Positions 13,984 through 60,212 of a stretch of DNA of 64,000 bases are shown in pieces. Numbering within the stretch: the stretch's first letter is position 1; the number at the start of each line of letters is the position of its first letter. The stretch is from contig JAMAHW010000047.1 in assembly GCA_023627715.1 (NCBI GenBank), positions 186,001-250,000 on the forward strand, written 5' to 3'. The stretch comes from Periconia sp. R9002. Its lineage: Eukaryota; Ascomycota; Dothideomycetes; Pleosporales; Periconiaceae. Position numbers and translations under genes: made by a program. The notes below the pieces were generated by a model. The model saw only the letters and a program-made list of their open reading frames with translations. It was not told the DNA's origin and searched no databases.

Positions 13984-14636
13984 ATGCATGTCGTGGTCTA
14001 CAATCCGGAGGCCTTGGAGGCCATGAAGGTTGTTGTTGAAGTCATCACCGCGTACAAGAGAGCCCACGCCACCTTGATGCAGTTTGAGTCCTTTTGTGGA
14101 GCATTCATGGCGATTGGAACATTTCAGGTGAATATCATGACGAAAGTTCGACGCATCGACAACGCCATAGAGACAATTCAATGCTGTGGAGTGGGTGCCT
14201 TTGCCAATCACGGCATGACGCACTGGCTGCAATGGGAATATTGGAAGTTCAGACAAGGTCTGAAGCAACGCTGGTATGTTGAACTCCGGGTACAGTGTCG
14301 TTTGTTGTCGAGATACCACGTGGTGTGGCGTATTGAGACACCGATAATGTACTGTAACCAGCCTAGTTACATTTCAACTAACTTTGTACCCGATATAGGA
14401 CTCCCAAGGATCTCAAGCTGTATGCCTCCACTCACTTGCAGTCGTTCACGGAGCGCTTCTTGATCGAGAATGCCAAGGTCTACGAGGCGATGCGGTCAGT
14501 GGACAAGAAGGCTACGGATTTTCTTCAAGAGAACGGACTCATCCCTCGCGCGGGAGACAGCCTCGAGCAGATTGAGGTCAAGTTGGGCGCTTGGAACGAA
14601 TTGCCCAAGTGCGCATACGGCTGTACGGGCTGCTGA
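13984..14636 (+). CDS. Orphan protein gene whose intron is an introner-like repeat
   Basis: Exons 13984-14273 and 14399-14636, 175 aa, no recognised family. The predicted protein is soluble and mostly helical, with a Cys-rich tail (PKCAYGCTGC). The upstream exon has an in-frame ATG (ACCATGCA); the downstream exon continues in the same frame as TPKDLKLYASTHLQSFTERF and beyond to a TGA at 14634. The unspliced reading would turn into a Cys/Arg/Ser-rich non-protein-like tail. The 125-nt intron matches two other places in the window on the opposite strand, so the gene appears to have gained its only intron by insertion of a mobile intron-like element. Function unknown. Confidence 0.6.
14274..14398 (+). 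mobile_element. Introner-like element, copy 1 (exactly a spliceable intron)
   Basis: GTATGT donor at 14274, CTAAC branch point at 14378-14382 and TAG acceptor at 14396-14398. Internal structure: complementary CGGGTACA (14287-14294) and TGTACCCG (14385-14392) near the ends; a central palindrome ACCACGTGGT (14315-14324); a hairpin TGTAAC (14353-14358) / GTTACA (14366-14371) with a 7-nt loop. The same order of motifs recurs on the minus strand at 35731-35856 and 56210-56337. Repetition, exact coincidence with splice borders and foldback structure are the defining traits of fungal introner-like elements. Confidence 0.8.
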
Positions 14637-35563: not shown

Positions 35564-35662
35564 GGGGGCTTAGGGTTGGGTTTTGGTTGTGCGATGCTCG
35601 TTGATACAGTGTGGGGCATCATGGAGAGATTTTGAGAGGTTTTGTGTGAGGGTGTATGGGAA

Positions 35663-35731
35663 GGTGCCCTGCACCGAGGCAGGAGCCGGACATGTACATA
35701 TAGGCAGATAGCTGACCACTACACCAATACC
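35663..35731 (-). pseudogene. Degenerate tRNA-like sequence (valine-type D-arm)
   Basis: Minus strand begins GGTATTGGTGTAGTGGTCAG, closely like the 5' half of fungal tRNA-Val, followed by ATCTGCCT. The T-arm region (GTCCGGCTCCTGCCTCGG) is only loosely tRNA-like and the acceptor ends do not pair. Possibly a tRNA relic or tRNA-derived short element. Confidence 0.3.
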
Positions 35732-35856
35732 TATATCGCAGGGACGTAGTTATTTAGATGTAACTAGGGTGGTTACAGCACATGATCAGTGTCTCAATAC
35801 ACCACGCCACGTGGTGTCTCGATAACAAACGAATCTGTACCTGGAATTCAACATAC
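35731..35856 (-). mobile_element. Introner-like element, copy 2 (intergenic)
   Basis: On the minus strand it starts GTATGTTGAATTCCAGGTAC and ends TGCGATATAG, so donor- and acceptor-like borders are kept. It shares with copy 1 the CCACGTGG core, the TGTAAC/GTTACA hairpin and the CGATATAG end, but the terminal complementary arms are weakened (GTCCC in place of GTACCC). No coding exon is recognised on either side. Confidence 0.72.
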
Positions 35857-55813: not shown

Positions 55814-56455
55814 GAATGGCTTCGTTTTCCCTTCTTGTTCTTGATTTCTGGAGTGTTCCAGTTGATTGATGGGCGTTTTTATGTTATATACCCTCTCTCT
55901 CTCTCGTTCTCTTTTTTGCGCATGTTTTACCTATTTCTTCTTTCAGAGGGGAGAGAGTGTGGATGGATGAGTGGATGGATATAAATGATTGGAATATAGA
56001 ATAATGAAATGTATAGAAGAGTATCCTTATCATCTCCCCTTCCCTTCTCCCCGCCTTTTTGACTGCTTGCTGTCTTGGGGATGTTTGCTCTCTTCGCCAT
56101 CACTTTTTTCCTTTGTTGTTGTTGTTTTTTCAGGGGGGTGGGCTGGGTGAGAATTGATATGTACGCGTCGCACTGACTTATGTAACTTACTTTACCTACG
56201 CTGACATACCTATATCGCGGGTACAAAATTAGTTAAATGTAACTAGGGTGGTTACAGTACATTGTCATTGTCATTGATACGCCACACCACGTGGTGTCTC
56301 GGCAACAAAATGACTCTGTACCTAGAGTTCAACATAGCGATGGTGTATAGAGGTGATGAATAGGGAAAAGGAAGGAAAGAAGGAAGGATACATCTATCCA
56401 TCACCCCCTCCCAGTCCACCCTCCTCCTCCTCTTCCTCCTCCTCCTCCAGAAACA
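55814..56455. other. Convergent intergenic region with introner-like copy 3
   Basis: 0.64 kb between convergent 3' ends; contains a (CT)n tract near 55891-55913 and the element at 56210-56337. Confidence 0.6.
56210..56337 (-). mobile_element. Introner-like element, copy 3 (donor mutated)
   Basis: Minus strand reads CTATGTTGAACTCTAGGTAC at the start and CCCGCGATATAG at the end. The first base of the donor-like border is C instead of G. It keeps GGTACA/TGTACC complementary ends, the CACCACGTGGTG palindrome and the TGTAAC/GTTACA hairpin. No exons are recognised at either side. Confidence 0.75.
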
Positions 56456-59754: not shown

Positions 59755-59780
59755 ATACCCAGGGTAGCGATACTCTGTGA
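59755..59780 (-). repeat. Dispersed repeat R1, copy C (partial)
   Basis: Minus strand CAGAGTATCGCTACCCTGGG then TAT matches copy A (CAGAGTATTGCTACCCTGGG) with one mismatch; the rest of the element is not recognisable. Confidence 0.5.
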
Positions 59781-60212
59781 GGGTCAAATTCAATTTCATG
59801 TACCTAGGTAAATGGGTAGTTGTTAAAGTTGCTAGTAAAGATTGTGCGAGAGATGCGGGATTGATGCTACATATGCAGTACGTAGAAGGTCAGTTTTTCT
59901 ATACAAGGGATTGGTGTCTGGTAATTAAAACGATCACCTTTTTTGTCTCTCTTTTTTTTTATTTGGTAGTGATATTATTTTGTTGTTTACGTTACATCAA
60001 TCGTAATGCTATATGTTTTTTTTTTCTAAGCAAGGTAGGCTGTTTACCAAGCGTTCCAATTCGTCTTTGAAGAAGACACTTTAAGACACTTTAATAAGGG
60101 ATGAAATAGTAGAGATAACTTTGTCCACGTTTTTACAATATTTTTCAGGTTGTGTATAGTACACGTTACATTATCTGCACGTCGAATAGGTGTGTAGGGA
60201 TGTATTTTTTTT

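Follow-up and report, generated by a model that had tools for sequence, protein, structure and literature searches.

A probable MITE-like introner family in Periconia sp. R9002 whose putative 5' splice site draws on a 3-bp target-site duplication

How new introns originate is an old question, and it is raised in compact form by a short two-exon gene of Periconia sp. R9002, whose only intron recurs elsewhere as a repeat. This locus was analysed within a 64-kb stretch of DNA, which we refer to as the window. An earlier note, made from the letters alone, had read the intron as an introner-like element with two further copies in the window, and had taken three copies in 64 kb as a sign of a very numerous family that might still be active. 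The three copies were borne out, with their positions and motifs (Table 1). When the window was scanned with the family consensus at a score of at least 50 (the maximum over 300 shuffled stretches was 32), exactly three copies scored 198-206.5, and there was no fourth. The genome-wide search suggested in the note gave more than 200 matching places in the 42.9-Mb assembly (267 contigs): 207 for a pattern of the 3' end of the element and 164 for one of its 5' end, with up to 3 mismatches allowed and none found with either reversed pattern. A shorter 5' pattern gave 139 places, and 5 in its reversed control. While the family is numerous, the 207 places correspond to only about 0.3 copies per 64 kb; holding roughly tenfold that mean, the window is a local concentration of the element and no typical sample.

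Joining the two exons of the host gene gives a protein of 175 aa that ends in TGA, and the unspliced frame leaves the homologous sequence at the junction and runs into an early stop. The gene, previously regarded as an orphan, is not strictly so: in a search of about 5.8 billion proteins, with 16 candidates scored, the sole match at E ≤ 0.001 was DM02DRAFT_651155 of Periconia macrospinosa, which is 82% identical to the spliced host protein over 100% of its length. Its residues across the junction are identical without a gap, and the alignment thereby supports both predicted splice borders of copy 1; the borders GTATGT and TAG, with a CTAAC between them, were confirmed by reading. The first base of exon 2 occupies the place of the terminal G of the element and is followed by ACT, so that copy 1 itself shows no target-site duplication. 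Matches to copy 1 elsewhere in the genome reach 92% identity, and its 3' subterminal box lies two bases closer to the end than in the consensus. Copy 3 has the 5' border CTATGT, without GT, and therefore cannot be a GT intron.

Table 1. Positions, in the window, of the three element copies, their parts and the host gene of copy 1
Feature	Position	Strand	Basis or remark
Host gene, exon 1 (ATG at 13984)	13984..14273	+	joined frame, protein homologue
Copy 1, intron GTATGT...TAG	14274..14398	+	gap-free protein alignment over the junction GLKQR/WTPKD
Copy 1, composition	G 14274, TAT 14275-14277, element body 14278-14398	+	
Copy 1, 5' subterminal box GGTACAGTGT	14289..14298	+	read from sequence
Copy 1, branch-point-like CTAAC	14378..14382	+	read from sequence
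Copy 1, 3' subterminal box ACTTTGTACC	14381..14390	+	inverted partner of the 5' box
Host gene, exon 2	14399..14636	+	first base G 14399, then ACT
Copy 2 (locus L009), 123-bp element	35730..35852	-	overlaps no ORF of at least 120 aa
Copy 2, upstream target-site duplication TAT	35853..35855	-	the L068 repeat, homologous to this one, has a single TAT
Copy 2, downstream target-site duplication TAT	35727..35729	-	
Copy 3, element 2 bases longer than consensus	56209..56333	-	overlaps no ORF of at least 120 aa
Copy 3, upstream target-site duplication TAT	56334..56336	-	preceded by C
Copy 3, downstream target-site duplication TAT	56206..56208	-	

For the family as a whole, 166 matches in 150 loci were reduced to 146 non-redundant copies, 123 of them full-length; the 23 partial copies were excluded from the duplication, coding and branch-point counts. 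Loci L151-L160 entered only a 128-copy comparison, the inspection of L152 and L154, and reading by hand. Two subfamilies were distinguished, A, to which the window type belongs, and B, with differences chiefly in the second half of the element. The nearest-neighbour identity between copies has a median of 91.8% and a maximum of 99.2%, and the most similar pairs are separated by a single difference in 122 bases, which suggests that the family is established and includes a few young pairs. The repeat had been described as 125 nt long. It is indeed a dispersed family, but the repeat proper measures 123 bp, GTTGAAC...ATATAGG, and the TAT in front of it represents the duplicated target or takes the position of that target. 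Between ATATAG and the right trimer stands a single base, G in 107 of the 123 copies, whereas the base before the left trimer is diverse (G 75, A 20, T 16, C 12); the element therefore includes the terminal G, and the duplication is 3 bp long. Within the last 40 nt, 108 of the 123 full copies have CTAAC, CTGAC or CTAAT, in 98 of them at one fixed distance.

A 10-nt box, GGTACARAGT, occurs in inverted orientation at 11 nt from either end of the 123-bp consensus; the outermost 11 bases themselves form no inverted repeat. The equal distance of the box from both ends has p = 0.002 in A and p = 0.00035 in B, two values that are not independent of each other. These subterminal boxes might serve as transposase sites; as RNA, they could also pair the ends of the intron, and all ten box pairs are possible, with G-U allowed, in 57 of the 123 copies. 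Of the earlier suggestion that complementary arms bring the splice sites together, the near-end arms hold for the family at large, but the predicted fold of copy 1 does not exceed its shuffles in stability (z = -0.33, compared with -1.20 for copy 2 and -2.53 for copy 3).

To examine the duplication, the bases preceding GTTGAAC in each copy were compared with those following ATATAG, and the partners were shuffled 5000 times. The trimer before GTTGAAC equals the trimer after ATATAG plus G in 62 of the 123 copies, against 29.0 in the shuffles (maximum 43). The same was seen in subfamily A (43 of 88 against 31.7, maximum 41), in subfamily B (19 of 35 against 10.0, maximum 17) and in the 74 copies classed here as non-coding, that is, having no spliced frame of 35 codons both ways (38 against 15.2, maximum 27), with a weaker excess in the coding copies (18 of 33 against 12.7, p = 0.0034). 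Position by position, the matches within the trimer numbered 94, 94 and 83 of 123, against 80.7, 54.3 and 69.5 expected, and no excess over the shuffles was found in the 123 copies at positions outside it. The first trimer position taken alone is at chance in subfamily B (27 against 25.8) and among coding copies (25 against 25.3), and in both sets nearly every left first base is T. A four-base duplication was considered and rejected: the base before the left trimer matches its counterpart in 68 of 123 copies against 67.5 expected, and in the non-coding copies the extra base is diverse on the left and mostly G on the right.

Two filled sites give a direct view of the duplication. Copy 2 (L009, with TAT) and the subfamily B copy L068 (with TGT) occupy nearly the same position, with an offset of a few bases, in one dispersed repeat, which has 17 matches in the genome, two of them the flanks of copy 2 itself. 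L009 reads ...ATATGTGTAT[element]GTATTGGTG... and L068 reads ...GGTATATGT[element]GTGTGTATTGGTG..., the bracket in each case being without the terminal G. There is one TGT in the unbroken left flank of L009 and there are two in L068; there is one TAT in the right flank of L068 and there are two in L009. The two loci thus serve as mutual empty sites. Considering that the left TGT of L068 is preceded by A and the right one by G, the G belongs to the element. In the score grid for this pair two best values are equal (3/3 and -1/-1), and the argument rests on the reading of the filled sites. For the host repeat of L104, 10 matches were located, two being its own. The repeats that span the junction, L121 for copy 2 and L090 and L123 for L104, are too diverged to fix the length of the duplication; for L104, the best-scoring drop is 5 against L090 and -1 against L123.

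For many of the copies examined, the introner reading was supported, since frame and protein evidence identifies them as exact introns of unrelated coding genes. For the orientation counts, a copy was called coding when its spliced frame was open for at least 60 codons both ways, with flanks of 240 nt (94 of the 123 copies). Among these 94 copies, 29 had an open spliced frame in the sense direction and 4 in the antisense direction; the classification is approximate, and part of the 29 sense frames is due to chance. Joins in the wrong frame gave 8.5 on average, and random sites gave 30.2 on one strand. As the random sites were taken inside these same loci, each longer than 2 kb, they provide a local control for gene bias: sense coding copies are about as common as random insertion nearby would give, and antisense copies are scarce. 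We used the length of the open frame because a hexamer coding score, which called only 9 copies coding, was too strict, the background itself being gene-dense. A G stands just before the duplication in 25 of 27 coding copies, compared with 26 of 51 non-coding copies (Fisher p = 1.6e-4); the coding set here is 27 of the 29, two copies open on both strands having been left out. The length is divisible by three in 20 of the 27 coding copies and not in 7, so that length alone seldom reveals splicing. An in-frame stop occurs inside the element in 17 of the 19 spliced frames of at least 50 codons found among the first 46 copies, and copy 1 is one of the two exceptions.

Ten spliced proteins were compared with Pfam, and in seven of them a domain spans the junction: a ketoacyl synthase (L003), a pyridine nucleotide oxidoreductase (L018), an aldehyde dehydrogenase (L134), a GH10 xylanase (L093), a GH92 protein (L101), a FAD-binding domain (L020) and an MFS transporter (L016). 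No Pfam domain lay over the junction of the other three, L094, L051 and L118. Homologues in the PDB were gap-free at the junction in six of the seven spliced proteins searched, namely the first four just listed, a nitroreductase (L024) and a plasma-membrane ATPase (L158), the last with 37 aligned residues, and the alignment of L094 stops short of the junction. Four coding copies (L031, L093, L100 and L106) have TAT or TAC on the left, followed on the right by ATAT or CTAT and not by GTAT, an arrangement that does not fit the model set out below.

Based on these observations, we consider it highly probable that the element is a non-autonomous introner resembling a DNA transposon of the MITE type, with a co-opted 5' splice site. 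The mobile unit would be the 123 bp from GTTGAAC through CTAAC to ATATAGG, with its inverted box near each end, and it would insert mostly at T-A-T (subfamily A) or T-G-T (subfamily B), duplicating these three bases. A sense copy landing in an exon at G-TAT would give G TAT [GTTGAAC...ATATAG G] TAT, in which the 5' splice site GTATGT would consist of the host G, the duplicated TAT and the GT of the element, whereas the branch point and the 3' AG would be supplied by the element. Splicing would then take out the host G, the TAT and the element, and leave the terminal G of the element and the second TAT, so that the mRNA would be unchanged. One splice site would thus be drawn from the duplication, the left TAT or TGT trimer apparently forming part of it. 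Since the host G is needed for this 5' splice site, a G before the left trimer is to be expected above all in coding copies. Insertion itself would probably be blind to orientation and region, and selection may be the reason why antisense copies and copies without the G are scarce in coding sequence.

A transposase would presumably act in trans. In a search limited to the Harbinger-type transposase family PF13359 and the surroundings of L152 and L154, no longer relative carrying a transposase was found: PF13359 had no match, and in the 1.6 kb beyond L152 and L154 the longest frames, of 197 and 109 aa, are not evidently those of a transposase. These two loci have only the first 18-20 bases of the element and then unrelated sequence; they may be truncated copies, chance matches or the ends of a different, longer element. 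MITEs in general are short, non-coding and present in many copies, with a duplication and inverted sequence near the ends. The Periconia family differs from them in that its ends act as putative splice sites, and no autonomous parent turned up in the limited search.

The proposed model would account for an mRNA that stays the same to the base, and it offers a countable filter, as exonic sense copies at G-TAT or G-TGT targets should survive best. It does not cover every copy. Nine of the 33 coding copies, copy 1 (GTAT/GACT) included, have trimers that match at no more than one position, and the simple duplication model does not account for these. By hand, we collected twelve copies that start with GTAT, GTAA or GTAC and end in AG, followed by G and a trimer that matches at no more than one position (L001, L012, L018, L020, L024, L053, L078, L079, L084, L094, L134 and L158); L065, with one match and no GT start, was left out. 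Frames are open for 60 codons both ways in eight of the twelve and for 41-44 in L012 and L053, and L078 and L158 were judged by reading. In the 128-copy comparison, L024 differs from L002, a non-coding copy with a duplication, at only 2 of 122 element bases, but its trimers, TAT on the left and CCG on the right, have no position in common, which makes three changes of the left trimer alone hard to credit. L078 and L084 have unrelated flanks and differ at 1 of 126 bases, and both have GTAA on the left beside GCAT on the right. Either selection rewrote these 5' splice sites or another route copied them along.

Two other readings of the whole family must be weighed before this choice. The earlier note had set its introner reading against an intergenic MITE with duplications unrelated to the splice borders, and what was found lies in part between the two, because the family is MITE-like and has duplications, but these appear to form part of the splice border. 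That the copies are nothing but such a MITE and the introns chance open frames is scarcely conceivable: while 74 of the 123 copies are non-coding by the 35-codon rule and frames of 60 codons also arise in wrong-frame joins (8.5 of 94), the 29 sense frames stand against 4 antisense ones and against that same 8.5, and conserved proteins continue through the junction, as in the 37 gap-free residues of the plasma-membrane ATPase. For the genes tested, the protein alignments refute it. A classical fungal introner-like element spreading as RNA by reverse splicing, with the flanking TAT a mere target preference, is very unlikely, even though RNA spread is the reading given for fungal introners in the accessible text of PMC9860276, 8 of the 9 mismatched coding copies are bounded by GT and AG, and L078 and L084 both begin with GTAA in unrelated surroundings although GCAT follows. 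Against it, 39 of the 74 non-coding copies have no G at the first position of the intron, the trimers differ among copies and tend to match within a copy (GTGC/GTGC, GTGG/GTGG, AACA/GACA, CACT/GACT), the mutual empty sites of L009 and L068 show single trimers, and sense coding copies are no more frequent than random sites in the same loci. RNA spread is hard to keep as the sole mechanism, given the trimer counts and L009/L068.

For the duplication-free copies, the better of the two explanations is that they arose in the same manner as the rest, at targets offering a weak 5' splice site or none at all, and that selection then changed the left trimer to give GTAT, GTAC or GTAA; we regard this as a serious possibility, if somewhat short of probable. 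Left trimers do change, since GTAA or GTAC is found at coding copies with TAT on the right (L011, L028 and L031), and, among subfamily B copies in coding frames with GTGT on the right, L066 and L134 have GTAT or GTAC on the left while L074 keeps GTGT. However, L012, L018, L024 and L079 would need three changes each, all ending exactly in GTAT, with L024 otherwise separated from its closest relative by just two differences in the element, and L078 and L084 would need the same two changes twice. The other explanation is that DNA transposition with duplication was followed by the copying of exact introns into genes, each with its own 5' splice site and without duplication. The twelve coding or apparently coding copies with a GTAT, GTAC or GTAA start and a non-matching trimer, the close kinship of L024 with L002 despite wholly different flanking trimers, and the GTAA common to L078 and L084 favour these two routes, and the same combination of left GTAT, GTAC or GTAA and mismatched right trimer occurs in the non-coding class (n = 74) in L078, L010, L019 and L144, the last three with shifted or altered 3' ends. 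We nevertheless consider the two routes rather doubtful: a G follows all twelve copies, as expected of the terminal G of the element and not of random exact insertion, and the downstream sequence of 8 of them starts with GT or GC, so that a weak 5' splice site was perhaps duplicated and later improved. It is with the same doubt that we raise a family changing its mode of spreading, from a DNA transposon making 3-bp duplications to perfect introns copied onward without them. If this were true, the DNA-type introners known from algae and the fungal ones without duplication would represent two phases of one life cycle. The presence of a duplication-free class within the same family makes the question of RNA or DNA testable in one genome.

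DNA-transposon introners with co-option of a splice site are said to have been described in Huff 2016, and a 2025 survey by authors of earlier work on DNA-type introners reportedly links introners to more types of transposon and may include comparable cases. In the accessible part of PMC9860276, ascomycete introner families have neither terminal inverted repeats nor target-site duplications, and DNA-type introners are reported elsewhere, one of them with a 5' splice site that comes from 4-bp duplications; the accessible part of PMC12403724 restates the absence of both features in fungal introners in 2025 and likewise reports that they have been read as RNA-borne. Introner-like elements of Dothideomycetes (Zymoseptoria, Fulvia and Dothistroma) are described in PMC4457414, and as far as its available sections go they resemble the Periconia family as similar short GT-AG introns in many unrelated genes; the available text of PMC11889510 mentions such elements just in passing. 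Whereas the fungal elements are reported as free of duplications and highly gene-biased (PMC9860276, accessible part), the Periconia family has a 3-bp duplication and, by the local control, no sense-coding excess, and its proposed mechanism differs from that of the fungal introner-like elements cited as background. The nearest likeness in mechanism is family 1 of Symbiodinium microadriaticum, in which, according to the same part of PMC9860276, the duplication gives the 5' splice site, the element gives the 3' splice site and the length of the mRNA is kept. Its duplication is 4 bp and not 3 bp, and unlike this family the Periconia one has an ascomycete host, a subterminal inverted box, termini that differ, and a first intron base that would be a host base outside the duplication, repaid by the terminal G. 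The sister stwintrons of Xylariales share with it an ascomycete host, repeated introns and a 10-nt near-terminal inverted repeat, but are nested double introns reported to integrate without target-site duplication (PMC12403724, available sections). Among the titles and abstract openings seen in the introner and intron-gain literature, most subscription papers being outside the coverage, none dealt with a fungal introner with target-site duplications. By the sequence evidence, the family is probably an introner and MITE-like, which would make it a DNA-transposon introner in an ascomycete; what appears to be new is that a fungal introner combines a 3-bp duplication with a host G and with a terminal G that pays it back. 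If splicing is confirmed, DNA transposition can make introns in ascomycetes too.

Several minor features were noted along the way. Two loci each have two copies near each other in what seems to be one gene, a mechanosensitive-channel-like gene by eye at L011 and the MFS transporter gene at L016; the second copy at L016 is diverged and shorter (109 nt including the border), with GTAC on both sides. L056 and L059 end in ATATATCTTA instead of ATATAGG, and are perhaps a separate lineage with a different 3' end. L026 starts with GCATGT and ends with ATATAG, its spliced frame runs over 88 + 52 codons, and it is a possible GC-AG intron. The dispersed repeat around copy 2 includes, by eye, a tRNA-like stretch, TGGTGTAGTGGTCAGC (window 35577-35730, minus strand), and no tRNA gene was called with bacterial settings in the window or at this host repeat. 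Lastly, a stretch of about 50 bp at 59755-59807 of the window is about 90% alike in the flanks of L002 and L027 and has relatives in L087 and L095, among the matches listed, and appears to be another small dispersed repeat.
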